A stretch of 64,000 bases of DNA. Origin: Pseudoroseomonas cervicalis. Lineage in GTDB: Bacteria > Pseudomonadota > Alphaproteobacteria > Acetobacterales > Acetobacteraceae. The translations under genes and the position numbers were made by a program. Each line of letters opens with the position of its first letter. Within the stretch, counting starts at the first letter, position 1. The stretch covers positions 3,573,501-3,637,500 of the forward strand of contig NZ_JAUTAJ010000004.1 in the NCBI RefSeq assembly GCF_030818485.1, in the 5' to 3' direction. Positions 33,699 through 41,529 of this stretch are shown here, in pieces. The notes under the pieces are model-generated. The model ran no database searches, was not told the DNA's origin, and was given only the letters and a program-made list of their open reading frames with translations.

Positions 33699-33900
33699 GG
33701 CGCCCCGCCGGCGTGTCGCCGCGGCCACGCCGCGCCCCCCGCTGCGGCGGCGCCGGGCTGCGGGCTGGCGCCGCGCGCGCGGCCGGCTAAGATCGGCGGC
33801 GCAACATCGGCGGCGGGCGGTCCCGGCGCGGCGGCGGGAGAGCGGGCGTGACCAGAACGGGATGCAGCGCCGGCCCCGCGGCCACAGGCGGGGCGCCGGC

Positions 33901-35292
33901 ATGACGCCCGAAGCCCCCGCCGCCGCGCCCCCCGCCGCCCCCTCTTCCGCCCCGTCCCCGCCGCAGGCCCCGGCACCCTCCGCCCCGCCGCTCTTCCGCA
34001 GCGCGGCGCTGGAGGGCGGCCTGTCCAGCCAGGAGCTGGATGGCGCCCTGGCGGTGGTGCGCCCCTGGCATCGCCGCGCCGGCCTGCTGCTGCTGGCGGC
34101 GCTGCTGGGCGGGCTGGGCTGGGCCGCGCTGGTGCAGGTGCCGGTGAAGGTGCAGGGCCGCGGCATCCTGCTGGCCCCGGCCGGGGTCACCGACATCTTC
34201 GCCGCCGGCGAGGGCCGCGTGGCGTCGCTGCTGGTGGCGCCGGGCGATGCGGTGCGGGCGGGCCAGCTGGTGGCGCTGATCGACCAGAGCGATGTCCGGC
34301 TGCAGCTGGCCGCCGCCGAGGGCACGCTGCGCGACGCCATCGCCGCGCGCGACGAGCTGCTGCAATTCCACGCCCGCGACGCCGCCGCCGACCAGGCCTG
34401 GCGCCAGGCGCGCGACGCGGCGCTGGGGCAGAGCCTGGAGGCCGCGGCCGAGAGGCTGCGCCTGACCGCCGAGCGCGAGGCGGTGATGCGCGGCCTGGCC
34501 GACCGCAACCTGGTCTCGCAGGACCGCGCCCTGGCCTCGCGCGTCGATGTCTACCAGCTGCGCGACAGCATCGAGCAGATGCGCAATGAGCGCCGCTCCC
34601 TGGTGCTGGACGCCGCCATCAAGCGCACCCAGCGCGAGCGCGAGGCGCTGACCGCCGAGCAGAAGCTGGCCGAGGCGCGGCGCGCCGTCACCACCCTCTC
34701 CGACCGGCTGGCCGGGGAGGGGCGGGTGCTGGCCGCCGATGCCGGGCGGGTGGTGGAGGTGAAGGCGGCGCCGGGCCAGGCGGTCACCCGCGGCACCGCG
34801 CTGCTGACCCTGGCGCGGCGCCAGGCGGGCGAGGGCCCCGAGATCCCGCTGGCCATCGCCTATGTCAGCGCCGAGGACGGCAAGAAGCTGCAGCCCGGGA
34901 TGGCGGCGGAAATCTCCCCCTCCACCACCCGGCGGGAGGAGAATGGCTTCCTGCGCGGCCGCGTCGCCTGGGTGGCCGACAGCGCCTCCAGCAGCGCCGG
35001 GCTGCTGCGCACCCTGCAGAACGACCAGCTGGTGCAGGGTTTCGTGCAGAGCCTGGGCACGCCCTTCGAGGTGCGGCTGGAGCTGCTGGCCGATCCGGCC
35101 GGGCCGCAGGGCCTGGCCTGGTCCTCCGGCCGCGGCCCCGGCTTCCCGGTGACCAGCGGCACCATGGCCGAGATGGCGGTGACGGTGCGGCGCATGCGGC
35201 TGATCACGCTGGCCATCCCGGCGCTGCGCCGCTGGCTGCCGGATGAGGAGGCCCGCACCGCCCCCGGCGCGGGGCCGGAGGCCGCGCGGTGA
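33901..35292 (+). CDS. HlyD-like adaptor of an NHLP-type export system
   Basis: 463-residue membrane-fusion (periplasmic adaptor) protein. A Pro/Ala-rich cytoplasmic N-terminus (1-50) precedes one membrane helix (about 60-80). A lipoyl/barrel half-motif follows (GRGILLAPAGVTDIFAAGEGRVASLLVAPGDAV), then a long helical hairpin (about 130-270) and the second lipoyl half. It would link the inner-membrane ABC transporters to an outer-membrane channel; no TolC gene is in the window. Its stop overlaps the GTG of the C39 transporter gene (gtga), so the two are coupled. It fits the NHLP/NHLM bacteriocin secretion HlyD group. Confidence 0.88.
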   Translation: MTPEAPAAAPPAAPSSAPSPPQAPAPSAPPLFRSAALEGGLSSQELDGALAVVRPWHRRAGLLLLAALLGGLGWAALVQVPVKVQGRGILLAPAGVTDIFAAGEGRVASLLVAPGDAVRAGQLVALIDQSDVRLQLAAAEGTLRDAIAARDELLQFHARDAAADQAWRQARDAALGQSLEAAAERLRLTAEREAVMRGLADRNLVSQDRALASRVDVYQLRDSIEQMRNERRSLVLDAAIKRTQREREALTAEQKLAEARRAVTTLSDRLAGEGRVLAADAGRVVEVKAAPGQAVTRGTALLTLARRQAGEGPEIPLAIAYVSAEDGKKLQPGMAAEISPSTTRREENGFLRGRVAWVADSASSSAGLLRTLQNDQLVQGFVQSLGTPFEVRLELLADPAGPQGLAWSSGRGPGFPVTSGTMAEMAVTVRRMRLITLAIPALRRWLPDEEARTAPGAGPEAAR

Positions 35293-37457
35293 GGCACCGC
35301 ACGCCGACCCTGCTGCAGATGGAGGCGACGGAATGCGGCGCCGCCGCGCTCGGCATCGTGCTGGCGCATCACGGGCGCTGGCTGACGCTCGAGGAGCTGC
35401 GCCAGCGTTGCGGCGTCTCCCGCGATGGCAGCCGCGCCGCCAACATCGCCCGCGCCGCGCGCGCGCTCGGGCTGGAGGTGCAGGCCTTCCGCGCCGAGCC
35501 GGAGGCGCTGGGCGAGGTGGCGCTGCCCGCCATCCTGCATTGGGGCATGGACCATTTCGTGGTGCTGGAGGGGCGGCGCGGCCGGCACTGGTTCATCAAC
35601 GATCCGGCGCGCGGCCCGCGCCGGGTGGAGGAGGCGGAGTTCGGCCGGCAATTCACCGGCGTGGTGCTGGCGCTGCAGCCGGGGCCGGAATTCCGCCGCG
35701 GCGGCGCGCCGCCCTCCGTCTCGCGCGCCCTGGCGGGGCGGCTGGACGGCGCCTGGCCCGGCTTCGCCCTGCTGCTCGGCCTCAGCCTGCTGCTGCTGCT
35801 GCCGGGGCTGCTGCTGCCGGCGGCGGCGCAGCTCTTCATCGACCAGGTGCTGGTGGCGCGGCTGCAGGACTGGCTGCTGCCGCTGCTCGGCGGCATGGTG
35901 GCGCTGGCGCTGCTGATGGCCGGGCTCACCCGGCTGCAGCTCAGCCTGCTGCTGCGGCTGGAGACGCGGCTGGCGGTACAGGGCTCCGGCCGCTTCCTGG
36001 AGCGGCTGCTGCGCCTGCCGCTCGGCTTCTACGCGCAGCGCCATCCGGGCGATGTCGCCACCCGGGTGCTGCTGAACAACCGCCTCGCCATCCTGCTGGC
36101 CGGGGAGCTGGGGCGCGCCCTGCTGGCGCTGGTCGGCGCCCTGGTCTACCTGGCCGCCATGCTGGCCTATGCGCCGGATCTGGCGGCGGTGGTGGCCGGG
36201 CTCGCCGCGCTGAACCTGCTGGCGCTGCAGCTTTCCGCCCGGGCGCTGGCCGATGACAATCACCGCCTGCTCTCCGAGACGGCGCTGGGCCAGGGCGAGG
36301 CGCGGCAGGGGCTGCAGCTGCTTGAGGCCTATCGCGCCAAGGGGGCGGAGGCGCTGCTGCTGCGCCGGCTGGTGGCGCGGCAGGCGCGGGTGCTGGGGCT
36401 GCGCCAGGGCCTGGCGCTGCGCCGCGCGGTGGTGGAGGCGCTGCCCGCGGCGCTGGCCGTGCTGGCCGCCGGCGCCGTGCTGGTGCTGGGCGGCCAGCGC
36501 GTCATGGCCGGGCAGATGAGCGTCGGCGCCCTCGTCGCCTTCCAGGGGCTGATGGCCGGCTTCGCCGGGCCGCTGGCGCAGCTCACCCAGCTCGGCGCGC
36601 AGTTCCAGGATGCGCGCGCCTACCTCGCCATGCTGGACGACACGCTGCGCCACCCCCTGGCCGAGGAATTCTCGCCGGTGGCGGAGGCGGCGCCGCTGGC
36701 GGCGCCGGCCCTGGCGGCCGCCCCCGTCACGGGCCGGCTGCGCGGCGCGCTGGAGCTGCGCCGGGTCAGCTTCGGCCATGCCCGGCTGGGCCCGCCGCTG
36801 CTGCGCGACATCTCCTTCCGGCTGCCGCCGGGGGCGCGGCTCGGCCTGGCCGGCGGCTCGGGCTCGGGCAAGTCGACGCTGGGCGGGCTGATCGCCGGGC
36901 TGCACACCCCGTGGTCGGGCGAGGTGCTGGTGGATGGTAGGCCGCTCGCCGCCTGGCCGCGCGCGCGGCTGCGCGGCGACCTGGCCCTGGTCGACCAGAA
37001 TGTCGTGCTGTTCGAGGGCAGCGTGCGCGACAATCTGACGCTGTGGGACCCGACCCTGTCGGAGGAGCGGCTGCAGGCCGCCTGCCACGACGCCGCCATC
37101 CACCTGCCGATCCTGCAGCGCGGCGGCTATGGCAGCCCCGTCGCCGAGGATGGGCGCGACCTCTCGGGCGGCCAGCGCGCCCGGCTGGAGCTGGCCCGCG
37201 CCCTGGCGATGGAGCCGCGCATCCTGGTGCTGGACGAGGCCACCGCCGCGCTGGATGCGGTGACCGAGGCCGAGGTGCTGGCCAATCTGCGCCGCCGCGG
37301 CTGCACCCTGGTGATGATCGCGCACCGCGCCTCGGCGCTGCGCGATTGCGACGAGGTGCTGGTGCTGGAGCAGGGCGCGGTCATCGAGCGCGGCGCGCCG
37401 GCGGCGCTGCTGCGCCAGGGCGGCGCCTTCGCCCGGCTGCTGGCGGAGGCGGCGTGA
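35289..37457 (+). CDS. C39 peptidase/ABC exporter (NHLP type, processing subunit)
   Basis: 722-residue transporter that cuts double-glycine leaders while exporting the cargo. The N-terminal C39 domain has the full catalytic set: Gln10, Cys16 in TECGAAAL, His89 in DHFVVLEG and Asp105 in NDPARG. Six-helix membrane domain (about 150-430), then an ABC ATPase with Walker A GGSGSGKST (about 520), signature LSGGQRAR and Walker B ILVLDEATAALD. The GTG start overlaps the hlyD-like stop. Its natural substrates are probably the two GG-leader proteins encoded just beyond the next gene. Confidence 0.92.
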   Translation: MRHRTPTLLQMEATECGAAALGIVLAHHGRWLTLEELRQRCGVSRDGSRAANIARAARALGLEVQAFRAEPEALGEVALPAILHWGMDHFVVLEGRRGRHWFINDPARGPRRVEEAEFGRQFTGVVLALQPGPEFRRGGAPPSVSRALAGRLDGAWPGFALLLGLSLLLLLPGLLLPAAAQLFIDQVLVARLQDWLLPLLGGMVALALLMAGLTRLQLSLLLRLETRLAVQGSGRFLERLLRLPLGFYAQRHPGDVATRVLLNNRLAILLAGELGRALLALVGALVYLAAMLAYAPDLAAVVAGLAALNLLALQLSARALADDNHRLLSETALGQGEARQGLQLLEAYRAKGAEALLLRRLVARQARVLGLRQGLALRRAVVEALPAALAVLAAGAVLVLGGQRVMAGQMSVGALVAFQGLMAGFAGPLAQLTQLGAQFQDARAYLAMLDDTLRHPLAEEFSPVAEAAPLAAPALAAAPVTGRLRGALELRRVSFGHARLGPPLLRDISFRLPPGARLGLAGGSGSGKSTLGGLIAGLHTPWSGEVLVDGRPLAAWPRARLRGDLALVDQNVVLFEGSVRDNLTLWDPTLSEERLQAACHDAAIHLPILQRGGYGSPVAEDGRDLSGGQRARLELARALAMEPRILVLDEATAALDAVTEAEVLANLRRRGCTLVMIAHRASALRDCDEVLVLEQGAVIERGAPAALLRQGGAFARLLAEAA

Positions 37458-40258
37458 GCGAAGCGCCGGGCGATGCGCCGGACGGGCTGATCCGCCTGGA
37501 GCCGGGCCAGAGGCTGGTGCTGGACGCGCCGCTGCTGCTGCTGAAGGGCGAGGTGCAAATCTTCGCCCAGCTGCGGGAGGCGGGGGAGGGGCCGCGCTGG
37601 GCCTTTGGCGGCCTCGGCCCCGGCGCCCTGCTGCTGGGCGCGCCCGAGGAGCGGGAGGCGCTGTTCGCGACCGGCGAGGCCGAGCTGCTGCCGGCCGGAT
37701 CCATCCCGCCCGAGGCCGCCCTGGCCTGGGCGGCGCTGCTGGCCACCGGGCTCGGGCGGCTGCTGGGGCCGCGGCCGGCGCTGCAGGCGCTGCTGCGGCC
37801 GGGCCAGAGCCGCGCCTTGCCGGATGGCGCCGGCTTCGCCCTGGCCGAGCCGGGCTGGCTGTCCTGCGAGGGCGGCGCCGCCAGCCTCTACGGGCTGGTC
37901 CCGCTGCCGGACGGGCTGCCGCTGCCGCCACAGGCCTGGGCCAGCCTGGAGGGCGCCGCGCTGGTCGCGGTGCGGCCCGCCGGCACCGCCGATCTCGCCG
38001 CGCTGCGGGCGCTGACGGCCAACGCGCTGGAGGCGCTGCCGCTGATCCGCGGCCTGGCCGAGGTGGATGCGCGCAACCGCGAGCGCCTGCGCGCCGCGCG
38101 CGAGGCGGCCGAGGCGCATGCGACGGCCGAGCGCCTAGCCGGCATCCTGGGCAATCCGCCGCCGCCGCCGCCCGTCCAGGCCGATGATTCGCTGTTCCGC
38201 GTGATGCAGGCGGTGGCCGCGGCGCAGGGCGCGCGGCTCTCCCGCCCGGCCGCGCAGCGCGAGGCCGATCTGGACCGGCTGCCCGAGGCGGAGGAGATCG
38301 CCCGCGCCTCCGACCTGCGGCTGCTGCCGGTGCGGCTGCCGCCCGGCTGGTGGCGGCGCGATCTCGGCCCGCTGCTCGGGCGCGACGCGCGGGGGCAGCC
38401 GGTGGCGCTGCTGCCGGGACAGCGCGGCTACCGGCTGCGCGACGGGGCGGGGGCGGAGCGGCGGGTGGATGCGGCGCTGGCCGCCGGCCTCGCGCCCCAG
38501 GCGGGCGCCCTGCTGGCGCCGCTGCCGGGCACGCCGCTGGGCCTGGCCGCGCTGCTGCGCTTCAGCCTGCAGGGCAGCTCCGGCGATGCGGCGGTGATCC
38601 TGCTGGCGATGCTGGCCGGGGCGCTGCTCGGCCAGCTGATGCCGCTGGCCACCAGCCTGGCCTTCGCCCTGCTGGTGCCGGCCGGGCTGTCGGGCGCGCT
38701 GGCGCAGCTCGGCCTGGCCATGGCGGTGCTGGCCGGGCTGCTCTACGCCGCGCGGCTGACCGCCGAGGCGACGCGCCAGCGGGTGGAGGCGCGCGCCGGG
38801 GCGCGGCTCGGCGCCGCGCTGTGGGACCGCATCCTGCGCCTGCCGCTGCCGGTGCTGCGGCGCTACGCCACCGGCGATCTGGCGGCGCGCACCGGCGGCG
38901 CCATCGCCCTGCCGGCGGCGCTGCGCGGCCTGGCGGCCAGCGGCGGCGGCGCGCTCGCCATGCTGCTGAGCAGCGCCGCGATGATGCTGTGGTACGCCCC
39001 GGCGGCGGGGGCGGCGGCGCTTGGCTGGTCGCTGCTCGGCCTGCTGCTGGCCGGCTTCGCCGCCTGGCGGCAGGAGCGCGCCTTCGCCGATGGCGAGGCG
39101 CTGGAGGGGCTGGCCGACAGCCTGGTGCTGCAATATGTCCAGGGCGTCGCCAAGCTGCGCGTGGCGGCGGCCGAGAGCCGCGCCTTCCGCCGCTGGGCCG
39201 ACCGCTTCGCGGCGCTGCGCGGGCGCAGCGTGCGGGCCCGCGCCGTGGGCTACTGGCACGATGCCTGGCTGGCGGCCAGCCCGGTGCTGCTGGCCGCCCT
39301 GGCCTATTGGCTGCTGGCGCCGCAGCACGACCCGGCCAGGCCGGCGGTGCCGCCCATGCCGCTGTCGCAGGTGATGGGTTTCCTCAGCGCGATGGGGCTG
39401 CATGTGGCGGCCGCCGCCCAGCTGGCGCAGGGGCTGCTGGCGCTCGGCATGCAGCTGCCCGGCTGGCGCTATGCCAGGCCGCTGCTGGAGCCGGTGCCGG
39501 AGCGCGCCGCGGGCGGCGCCGATCCGGGGCGGCTCTCCGGCGCGCTGGACCTGGTCGGGCTGCATTTCGCCTATCCGGGCGGGCCGCCGGTGCTGCGCGG
39601 CGTCCAGGCCCGCATCGCGCCGGGCGAGTTCGTCGCCATCACCGGCCTGTCGGGCGGCGGCAAGAGCACGCTGCTGCGGCTGGCGCTGGGGCTGGAGCGG
39701 CCGCAGGCCGGCGCCATCCTGTTCGACGGGCAGGAGCTGGGCGGGCTGGACCCGGTGCTGCTGCGCCGCCAGATCGGCACCGTGCTGCAGGGGGAGAAGC
39801 TGCCGGCGGGCACCATCCTGGAGGCGGTGCGCGGCCTGTCCGGCGCCGGCGAGGCCGAGATCTGGCAGGCGCTGCGCGACGCCGCCATCGCCGAGGAGGT
39901 GGCCGCCATGCCGATGCGGCTGCACACGCTGATCACCGATGGCAGCCGCACCCTCTCCGGCGGCCAGGTGCAGCGGCTGCTGCTGGCGCGCGCCCTGGCG
40001 CAGCGCCCGGCGCTGCTGCTGCTGGACGAGGCGACCAGCGCGCTGGATGGCGCGACCGAGGCGGCGGTGACCGCGGCGCTGGACCGGCTGGCGGTGACGC
40101 GGCTGGTGGTGGCGCACCGCCTGCCCACCATCCGCCGCGCCGACCGCATCCTGGTGCTGGACCAGGGGCGGGTGGTCGAGGCCGGGAGCTATGACGCATT
40201 GCTGGCCGCCGGGCGCGGCTTCGCCCGGCTGGTGGCGGCCTCCGGCGCGCCGGGCTGA
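37454..40258 (+). CDS. Second ABC exporter of the NHLP-type system (no peptidase)
   Basis: 934-residue ABC transporter. The long N-terminal region (about 1-360) has no C39 cysteine motif and includes a regulatory-type beta-rich part and a helical linker (ALEALPLIRGLAEVDARNRERLRAA). A six-helix membrane domain (about 370-650) and an ATPase with GLSGGGKST, LSGGQVQRLLLARAL and LLLLDEATSALD follow. This layout matches the permease/ATPase partner of NHLP export systems. It probably forms a heterodimer with the C39 transporter. GTG start overlapping the previous stop by four bases. Its stop lies 28 bases from the convergent cargo gene. Confidence 0.88.
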   Translation: MSEAPGDAPDGLIRLEPGQRLVLDAPLLLLKGEVQIFAQLREAGEGPRWAFGGLGPGALLLGAPEEREALFATGEAELLPAGSIPPEAALAWAALLATGLGRLLGPRPALQALLRPGQSRALPDGAGFALAEPGWLSCEGGAASLYGLVPLPDGLPLPPQAWASLEGAALVAVRPAGTADLAALRALTANALEALPLIRGLAEVDARNRERLRAAREAAEAHATAERLAGILGNPPPPPPVQADDSLFRVMQAVAAAQGARLSRPAAQREADLDRLPEAEEIARASDLRLLPVRLPPGWWRRDLGPLLGRDARGQPVALLPGQRGYRLRDGAGAERRVDAALAAGLAPQAGALLAPLPGTPLGLAALLRFSLQGSSGDAAVILLAMLAGALLGQLMPLATSLAFALLVPAGLSGALAQLGLAMAVLAGLLYAARLTAEATRQRVEARAGARLGAALWDRILRLPLPVLRRYATGDLAARTGGAIALPAALRGLAASGGGALAMLLSSAAMMLWYAPAAGAAALGWSLLGLLLAGFAAWRQERAFADGEALEGLADSLVLQYVQGVAKLRVAAAESRAFRRWADRFAALRGRSVRARAVGYWHDAWLAASPVLLAALAYWLLAPQHDPARPAVPPMPLSQVMGFLSAMGLHVAAAAQLAQGLLALGMQLPGWRYARPLLEPVPERAAGGADPGRLSGALDLVGLHFAYPGGPPVLRGVQARIAPGEFVAITGLSGGGKSTLLRLALGLERPQAGAILFDGQELGGLDPVLLRRQIGTVLQGEKLPAGTILEAVRGLSGAGEAEIWQALRDAAIAEEVAAMPMRLHTLITDGSRTLSGGQVQRLLLARALAQRPALLLLDEATSALDGATEAAVTAALDRLAVTRLVVAHRLPTIRRADRILVLDQGRVVEAGSYDALLAAGRGFARLVAASGAPG

Positions 40259-40286: not shown

Positions 40287-40724
40287 TCAGCCCGTGGACT
40301 TGCCCGTCTGGTCCGGGCCCGGCGCGCCGCCATGGCCGCCGCCGCCGCCGGCCAGGCCCGCCGGCTTGCCCATGCCGGCCATGCCGGCCATGCCGGCGGC
40401 GAGGCTGGTCGCGCCCCCCACCACCTGCGAGACCATCGCCGCGATCGCGCCGGACATCATGCTTTCCGCCTGCGACTGCAGCTCGCCGGCCTGCTGCTGC
40501 AATTGCTGCTGCTGGGCGCTCTGCGACGCCTGCCGGTCCTGCAGGGCCTGGTCCCGCTGCTGCTGCGCCTGCTCCGTCATGAGCTGGCCGAGCGTCGCGA
40601 AGAGGTCGGCCGCGTCGCCGCCCGGGATCTGCGGCATTGTCGGGCCGGAGGCCTGGCCGGTGCCGCCATGCACCTGCTCGAGGGCATCCTCCGGAAGCGG
40701 CTGGAGCGCGGCGTTGCGGGTCAT
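40287..40724 (-). CDS. Double-glycine-leader exported protein 1 (translocator-like)
   Basis: 145-residue protein. Residues 1-21 are a class II leader ending VHGG, with conserved ALxPLPEDALExVHGG, predicted to be cut after Gly21 by the neighbouring C39 transporter. The mature part has a Gln-rich helical stretch (about 45-85, likely coiled coil), then a hydrophobic/amphipathic segment (about 90-118: MMSGAIAAMVSQVVGGATSL and a GMAGM repeat), and a Gly-rich tail. The order of coiled coil then glycine-rich hydrophobic segment recalls SctB/EspB-type translocators of type III secretion; this is a resemblance by eye only. Tandem with a second such gene; a moderate gagg ribosome site lies upstream. 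Confidence 0.75.
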   Translation of the reverse strand: MTRNAALQPLPEDALEQVHGGTGQASGPTMPQIPGGDAADLFATLGQLMTEQAQQQRDQALQDRQASQSAQQQQLQQQAGELQSQAESMMSGAIAAMVSQVVGGATSLAAGMAGMAGMGKPAGLAGGGGGHGGAPGPDQTGKSTG

Positions 40725-40821
40725 GGCGTGCCTCGTCGCTGGAGGGGAGTGGGGCACTGCCCGGCGCCGGGGGCGGCGGCGACCGGCCGGCAATGCCCGT
40801 GGCGGGCCCCGGCCCGCGGCC

Positions 40822-41529
40822 TCAGCCGCGATGCTTGCCGGTGGCCTCTGTCGCGGACCCGCCGAGGCCGATGGAGGTGCCGCCCACGGTGACTGTCGCG
40901 GTCGGGCTCCCCGTGCCCTGGCCGGTGAAGAGCGGCAGCGCCGACTGGAACATGTGGATCATCTCCGGCTGGCTCAGATGGCCATCCTGCATCGCCTCGG
41001 AGAAGCTGTGCAGGAAGTCGTAGGGGCCCGGCTCCTGGCCGTGCTGCAGCAGCATCTGCTGCACCTGCGGCTGTTCCAGCACCGGCTGCAGATAGCCCCA
41101 CAGGGTCTCCAGGCTCTGCTGGGCCACGGTCATGAGCGAGGCCGTATTGCCGCCCGGCATCTGCGGGGCGGCGACCTGCACGGCCGCGAAAAACTGGACG
41201 ATGGCGCCGAGCTGCTCGAAGGCCATCCCGATCTTGTCGGCGACCGAGCCGGAGCCGTGCTTGTCCATCGCCTCCTGCATCTTGGCCGCCATCTCGTTCA
41301 TCTTGTCCTGCTTCTCCTCGATGGAGGATTGCATGGCCGACTGGGCGTGCGTGATCTGCTGATCCTGGGAGTCCGCATTGTCCTGCCGCAGCGCCAGCAG
41401 CTGCGACACCAGATCCGCATCGTCGCCGGGCTGCCCGCTCGTCCCCGGCAGCGCGATCTTCCCGGCGCCGCCATGCACCAGCTCGAGGGCGTCCTCCGGA
41501 AGGGGGTGGAGCGCGGTGTCGGGGGTCAT
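40822..41529 (-). CDS. Double-glycine-leader exported protein 2 (translocator-like)
   Basis: 235-residue protein whose 21-residue leader is identical to that of the downstream neighbour at 16 positions and ends VHGG. The mature part begins with a short linker. A charged helical region follows (about 45-95, SAMQSSIEEKQDKMNEMAAK, likely coiled coil), then a hydrophobic segment (about 98-120: IGMAFEQLGAIVQFFAAVQVA). A helical region (about 130-205) and a Gly/Thr-rich tail complete it. No Sec signal, no cysteines and no modification-enzyme gene nearby. Cargo of the adjacent NHLP-type exporter is the best reading. A pore-forming or membrane-inserting role is inference. It is divergent from a LysR gene. 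Confidence 0.75.
   Translation of the reverse strand: MTPDTALHPLPEDALELVHGGAGKIALPGTSGQPGDDADLVSQLLALRQDNADSQDQQITHAQSAMQSSIEEKQDKMNEMAAKMQEAMDKHGSGSVADKIGMAFEQLGAIVQFFAAVQVAAPQMPGGNTASLMTVAQQSLETLWGYLQPVLEQPQVQQMLLQHGQEPGPYDFLHSFSEAMQDGHLSQPEMIHMFQSALPLFTGQGTGSPTATVTVGGTSIGLGGSATEATGKHRG

Follow-up and report, generated by a model that had tools for sequence, protein, structure and literature searches.

The translocon proteins of type III secretion systems (T3SS) are regarded as meaningful only at the end of an injectisome needle. Proteins that carry a double-glycine (GG) leader without being bacteriocins have been described together with C39 transporters: EbfG1-4 of Synechococcus, with mature parts of 6-7 kDa, are associated with the transporter PteB (PMC4997328), and MAM of Faecalibacterium, which is abundant in the envelope and whose residues 23-135 constitute the cargo, is associated with the transporter PCAT (PMC12184118). 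The models TIGR03794, TIGR03796 and TIGR03797 describe exporters of the NHLP/N11P natural-product type (PMC2887384). Here, we compare these systems with a 64,000-nucleotide stretch of the Pseudoroseomonas cervicalis genome (assembly GCF_030818485.1, contig NZ_JAUTAJ010000004.1, positions 3,573,501 to 3,637,500; hereafter the window), in which the tandem genes P0002 and P0001 encode GG-leader proteins beside an NHLP-like exporter. The pair shares with EbfG1-4/PteB and MAM/PCAT the combination of non-bacteriocin proteins, a GG leader and a C39 transporter, and differs from them in its translocon likeness, no translocon relatives being described for EbfG or MAM in the parts of these papers used here (PMC4997328, PMC12184118).

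On balance, we favour the view that P0002 and P0001 are C39-exported cargo and shortened relatives of the translocon proteins SctE and SctB, respectively, which may act as membrane-active coiled-coil assemblies. The underlying observation of a GG-leader tandem pair beside an exporter is confirmed: a first-pass annotation, made from the DNA letters alone, had reported tandem genes with 21-residue GG leaders and mature parts of 124 and 214 residues, and both open reading frames (ORFs) are found (Table 1), with P0001 lying downstream of P0002 on the minus strand after a gap of 97 bases. Codon-position GC across the two ORFs (GC3 of 0.93 and 0.95, GC2 of 0.43 and 0.54) fits real genes. The leaders are identical at 16 of 21 residues and both carry L(-12), L(-7), V(-4) and a terminal GG; with hydrophobic residues at -12, -7 and -4, GG at -2/-1 and a C39 transporter adjacent, the two proteins have the features of C39/GG-leader substrates. 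The coiled coil, hydrophobic segment and Gly-rich tail reported for each mature part are likewise visible, the best 19-residue hydropathy being only 1.41 in P0001 and 1.36 in P0002, which is weaker than that of an ordinary transmembrane helix.

This order of elements had been likened to that of T3SS translocators, and profile comparisons bear the likeness out. In library scans, the top NCBIfam match of P0001 is SctB (NF038055; 27.3 bits, E 2.2e-6, next match 0.03) and the top Pfam match of P0002 is SseC/SctE (PF04888; 19 bits, E 0.0011, next match 0.014), while none of 25 block shuffles of P0001 matches NF038055 at E<=0.05. For calibration, a gene annotated as hypothetical beside the annotated sctE of a Mesorhizobium huakuii injectisome locus, an SctB to judge from its position and a local model, also scores 27.3 bits on NF038055, and 103.4 bits on that local SctB model. 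Such local models were built from eight SctB and eight SctE proteins of injectisome loci near tip genes. Mature P0001 scores 24.8 bits on the SctB model (mature residues 23-102 aligned to model positions 78-157), its coiled coil and following hydrophobic segment being in register with those of SctB; mature P0002 scores 25.4 bits on the SctE model (mature residues 15-100), in a match to the N-terminal coil of SctE as it leads into the first hydrophobic segment, and has no score on the SctB model. Neither score was reached by any of 1,000 block or 1,000 heptad-preserving shuffles of each protein, and leave-one-out models by locus gave 15.5-27.6 bits for P0001 on SctB and 22.3-29.0 bits for P0002 on SctE.

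A natural background was provided by 3,524 ORFs from loci outside the listed T3SS loci. First in the SctB ranking comes a GG-leader protein (53.2 bits) from G001, the genome of the same genus whose exporter is closest to that of the window, followed by an SctB-like ORF of G973, P0001 with an upstream extension (28.2 bits) and an HlyD-like ORF (16.3 bits), this last value being the best of any ORF without a T3SS or GG link. The SctE ranking begins with two fragments of one SctE-like ORF of G973 and continues with P0002 (25.4 bits), P0001 (19.9 bits) and an Aquibaculum tip protein (12.8 bits). In two plasmid loci outside model building, the M. huakuii protein annotated as sctE reaches 148 bits with the SctE model and has no score with the SctB model, and five further high-scoring plasmid-locus proteins each match one model only. 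Furthermore, the gene order is SctE-SctB in all eight injectisome loci used for the models, and P0002-P0001 follow the same order. The pair thus resembles SctB and SctE in having a hydrophobic segment after the coiled coil, in its class-specific profile matches and in gene order; what sets it apart is a GG leader instead of needle export, and no SycD-type chaperone was found. Indeed, the earlier statement that no needle complex or chaperone lies nearby holds, as tblastn searches with the T3SS parts of two loci returned no match within the window.

The GG-leader protein of G001 strengthens the SctB connection, as it scores 44.4 bits on NF038055, above the cut-off of 37, in a genome whose ABC1 is 71% identical to that of the window (ABC1 denotes the ATP-binding cassette (ABC) protein with the C39 peptidase). 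When the SctB alignment was searched against 80 chosen genomes, 60 of which belong to the genus or have an NHLP-type exporter, matches were obtained in G571 and G325 (both with T3SS), in G001 and in the window's own genome (G000), all four being represented in the alignment itself, and, weakly, in G002 (0.0054).

The exporter operon (HlyD, C39-ABC and a second ABC protein, ABC2) is adjacent and convergent to P0002-P0001 and presents the same three-gene set as the NHLP/N11P exporters, only HlyD scoring above its curated cut-off (ABC1 falls short by 3 bits and ABC2 by 118 bits). ABC1 contains the motifs ECGAA, GMDHF and NDPAR, read here as the likely sites of the C39 Cys, His and Asp; with fitting leaders, these motifs and a PF03412 domain, the proposed link between GG leader and C39 exporter is sustained. 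The absence of modification-enzyme genes nearby, also claimed earlier, agrees with the gene calls of 28.5-50 kb, judged by eye with no scan made. In a tree of 38 C39-ABC proteins (39 loci were given; the partial copy L037 was dropped), the window exporter falls in a clade of 13 with support 1.0, separate from the canonical NHLP exporters. Unlike the latter, this divergent clade is accompanied by cargo precursors of 145-449 residues with short GG leaders, and neither protein of the window pair bears a leader of the NHLP or Nif11 type (no match at E<=1 in Pfam or NCBIfam). The 38 exporter regions taken for gene and leader scans are a selection rather than every match: TIGR03797 was matched at E<=1e-120 in 20 of 299 genomes of the family, and C39-ABC at E<=1e-100 in 7 of 17 genomes of the genus and at E<=1e-120 in 26 of 385 genomes of the class. 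A GG-leader protein gene adjoins the exporter in 11 of the 13 clade members: five have proteins with RTX repeats, four have coiled-coil proteins of 192-202 residues, and the remaining two have a Gly-rich protein and the window pair, respectively; the exceptions are G001 and one of the two exporters of G283. The RTX assignment in the five was made by eye, a Pfam RTX match being run on L032, L094 and L095. The leader scans were loose and listed many antisense ORFs, of which only genes that looked real by eye were kept, and one scan missed the cargo of Tistrella and Aquibaculum, genes that the gene calls revealed.

The coiled-coil cargo adjoining the exporters of three Tistrella genomes and of Aquibaculum arenosum appears, from profile matches, to belong to a T3SS tip family. 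A profile of these four proteins matches 97 proteins, which a script sorted into 16 with GG leaders, 28 Sec-like, 52 leaderless and 1 other; after inspection by eye had taken P0026, P0037 and P0049, which begin with a hydrophobic segment, out of the GG class, 13 GG, 31 hydrophobic Sec-like, 52 leaderless and 1 unsorted members resulted. Genome context was seen only for those of the 97 that also turned up in genome searches. The T3SS needle model PF09392 is matched at E<=0.01 by 7 of 28 aligned members (best 7.6e-6). In the loci read, leaderless members occupy the position expected of a tip protein, adjoining T3SS parts in 9 of 9 class and family genomes that have them. Tip-family matches occur in 13 of the 385 class genomes, five of which have GG-leader proteins and eight of which have T3SS parts beside the match (SycD, SctE, SctN, SctJ or SctV, with varying completeness; in G478, SycD only, on a short contig). 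The family search gave matches in two of 299 genomes, namely G000 and G325, the latter within a T3SS locus and with a second match that is the needle protein itself, and in G973, a genome of the phylum search, the local models identify ORFs resembling SctB, SctE and tip proteins. Five plasmid records also match, and two were read: in M. huakuii the member adjoins SctB (by the local model), one gene from the annotated sctE and beside a secretin, and in Bradyrhizobium sp. 62B it lies beside a secretin in a stretch with annotated sctJ and sctV. By architecture, Bsp22 and EspA would be analogues among the T3SS tip/filament proteins. Bsp22 is described as having two long helices, one at each terminus, with a mixed region connecting them (PMC12607632).

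Within the class sample, the five genomes with GG-leader tip proteins (the own genome, three of Tistrella and Aquibaculum) coincide with the five in which the best exporter match is at least 50% identical to ABC1 of the window. The own-genome member, encoded on contig C1 downstream of and on the same strand as a response regulator and a histidine kinase, matches the tip family with E 1.7e-15 on a profile (A5) built without it, scores 56.7 bits on a model from injectisome tips alone and has an EF-hand-like loop in its middle; it may be co-exported with the window pair. Both this protein and the exporter-linked cargo of Tistrella and Aquibaculum resemble injectisome-locus tips in profile matches and differ from them in the GG leader and in the lack of an injectisome-type SctV in all five genomes. 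The own genome encodes a pair of FHIPEP proteins whose identity to the G571 SctV is 35% and 36%, whereas two injectisome SctVs share 60%; each of the three Tistrella genomes has one FHIPEP protein and Aquibaculum none. We read these proteins as putatively flagellar, and the two genes of the own genome probably represent two flagellar export systems. As a separate observation, the tip-family members with Sec-type N-termini, among the named ones inspected, come from Bacillales, which are not known to have an injectisome; P0024, P0027, P0034, P0043, P0050 and P0096 (Paenibacillus, Lysinibacillus, Aneurinibacillus) are such members.

The relatives suggest that translocon-type proteins may have moved from the injectisome to a simpler exporter. 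P0001 and P0002 would be proteins exported without modification by the adjacent NHLP-like C39 exporter; their shared leader would be cut after the GG by ABC1 and the mature proteins would leave by a type I route, as we infer from the leader, the neighbourhood and the exporter clade. By descent, P0002 would most likely be a shortened relative of SctE and P0001 of SctB. The most likely role of the mature proteins would be in assemblies of coiled coils whose helices act on membranes, placed either at the surface of the cell or on the membrane of a target, so that translocon parts would be used without a needle. The first-pass interpretation is partly supported overall, and its idea seems nearer to the truth than its own evidence allowed; partnership and membrane action or pore formation, like cleavage and export, are what we infer for the pair. 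A bolder and rather doubtful extension is that of a needle-free translocon, in which GG-leader tip-, SctE- and SctB-like proteins would be cut and released by a dedicated C39/NHLP-like exporter and, once outside, build a filament or a pore on a target membrane. If true, an export route of the bacteriocin type would have acquired the full complement of injectisome tip parts. Members of the tip and SctB families that bear a GG leader and occur next to a C39 exporter, or in a genome that has one, would show that such parts can function in the absence of the machine, or did so in the past; the translocon would become testable as an independent membrane-active module, and the range of C39 exporters would widen from peptides to coiled-coil, RTX and Gly-rich protein families.

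The pair is exceedingly rare. A search of 5.8 billion proteins gave, apart from P0002 itself, a single homologue of it (P0003; 77% identity, on a 3-kb contig) and no homologue of P0001 at E<=0.001. Of 98 relatives, none but the own genome gave a match to P0002 at E<=0.001. Sequence searches of PHROGs and PDB, and plasmid searches with P0002 and the G001 GG-leader protein, gave nothing useful, and a genome-contig scan with ABC1 found distant transporters only. Among the open-licence PMC papers listed in literature searches, judged by title and start of abstract, none deals with type III translocon or tip proteins that carry a GG leader or leave by a C39 exporter.

Several observations weigh against translocon descent, and one way of accommodating them would be a chance likeness of low-complexity coiled coils, the pair being orphan proteins of unrelated origin. 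Both library matches are below the curated cut-offs (37 bits for NF038055, 30.2 bits for PF04888), scores on the local models reach only about 25 bits, and at E<=1 there is no T3SS match for P0001 in Pfam or for P0002 in NCBIfam. With the SctE model, too, P0001 attains 18.4 bits, and two of its eight leave-one-out scores (16.2 and 15.5) fall short of the 19.2 bits that the highest-scoring block shuffle reaches with the full SctB model. P0003 reaches only 13.7 bits on the SctE model, a score attained by 1 of 500 block shuffles in one run and by none of 1,000 of either kind in another; it has no SseC match at E<=0.05, and its matches to PhaP (E 0.0019) and further coiled-coil models are comparable in strength to that of P0002 to SseC. 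The lack of an SseC match in P0003 weakens that of P0002 as stand-alone evidence, and we retain it only alongside the local model. Nevertheless, the failure of both shuffle types to reach the score of either protein, and the ranks of the pair in a background that includes HlyD-type ORFs, make a chance likeness unlikely in our judgement. Membership of the pair in the tip family, suspected from an EF-hand-like motif in P0002, was rejected on negative hhalign and profile controls: neither protein is a detectable member, and the alignment of P0001 with the tips (E 0.0012, probability 19.5) runs through the leader.

Structural departures lend themselves to the main rival, in which the pair would be secreted structural or adhesive coiled-coil, Gly-rich matrix or surface proteins, comparable to EbfG or MAM, whose translocator likeness reflects fold class only. 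P0002 lacks the hydrophobic hairpin of SctE, its hydropathy of 1.36 comparing with 2.25-2.94 in all eight SctEs, and in P0001 and the GG-leader protein of G001 little sequence follows the hydrophobic segment, the C-terminal region of SctB being absent (alignment A8). Of the earlier proposal of a two-component membrane-inserting pair, the leader, exporter and translocator likeness stand, and membrane insertion and pore formation stay putative, P0002 lacking the strongly hydrophobic segments of the SctEs. Since RTX or Gly-rich proteins are the cargo of other exporters in the clade, translocon-like cargo cannot be predicted from the exporter, and GG-leader non-bacteriocin proteins do exist in EbfG (PMC4997328) and MAM (PMC12184118). 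The co-occurrence of GG tip and exporter, though found in five of five genomes, spans three genera only, and SctB-like matches of the GG kind occur only in G000 and G001 among the 80 genomes, both of which are in the query alignment. However, class-specific profile matches exceeding heptad-preserving shuffles, and the GG-leader tip- and SctB-family proteins of relatives, speak against fold class alone, and we regard a matrix or adhesion role as a serious but less probable account. Least probable is a two-component unmodified bacteriocin or microcin-like toxin pair directed at other bacteria: GG leaders, the NHLP-like exporter and tandem genes with the same leader would suit it, but mature parts of 124 and 214 residues are not the short peptides of small bacteriocins, no immunity gene was recognised by eye in the 28.5-50 kb gene calls, and the relatives point to T3SS families. 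Translocon descent with C39 export accordingly remains the reading that we prefer.

Table 1. Locations of the gene pair, the neighbouring exporter and related genes (plain positions refer to the window; others to the contig or locus named)
Feature	Location	Strand	Length	Basis or remark
P0002	41529-40822	minus	235 aa: leader 1-21, mature 22-235 (214 residues)	SctE/SseC-like coiled coil, weakly hydrophobic segment, Gly-rich tail
P0001	40724-40287	minus	145 aa: leader 1-21, mature 22-145 (124 residues)	SctB-like coiled coil, hydrophobic segment, Gly-rich tail
Double-glycine leader of P0002	41467..41529	minus	21 codons	sequence
Double-glycine leader of P0001	40662..40724	minus	21 codons	sequence
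HlyD-type periplasmic adaptor, NHLP exporter type	33862..35292	plus		TIGR03794, 247 bits (cut-off 156.2)
ABC1: C39 peptidase/permease/ATPase, putative leader cutter	35289..37457	plus		PF03412, 1.4e-34; TIGR03796, 850.4 bits (cut-off 853.3); C39 motifs
ABC2: second ABC permease/ATPase without peptidase	37454..40258	plus		TIGR03797, 591.3 bits (cut-off 709.4)
GG-leader tip-like protein (L140)	G000:C1 10644-10090		185 aa	tip-family profile match
FHIPEP genes of the own genome (two)	G000:C1:106592-108550 and G000:C4:1427062-1429029			one on a 120-kb contig
GG-leader SctB-family protein of G001	L181 9686-9114		190 aa	not adjacent to exporter
RTX-type GG-leader protein	L031 3733-4359	minus		beside clade exporter
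RTX-type GG-leader protein	L032 3010-4059	minus		beside clade exporter
RTX-type GG-leader protein	L033 477-1139	plus		beside clade exporter
RTX-type GG-leader protein	L094 11009-11647	plus		beside clade exporter
RTX-type GG-leader protein	L095 4330-5079	plus		beside clade exporter

Apart from the cargo described above, the exporter regions contain two large GG-leader proteins, one of 731 residues on contig C4 of the own genome (L028 13274-15469, minus strand) and one of 670 residues (L035 11661-13673, minus strand), each followed by small proteins and a divergent exporter and with no family match above noise. Beside a canonical exporter, eleven tandem paralogous precursors of 87-111 residues, presumably NHLP-like, are encoded at L110 334-5893 on the plus strand.
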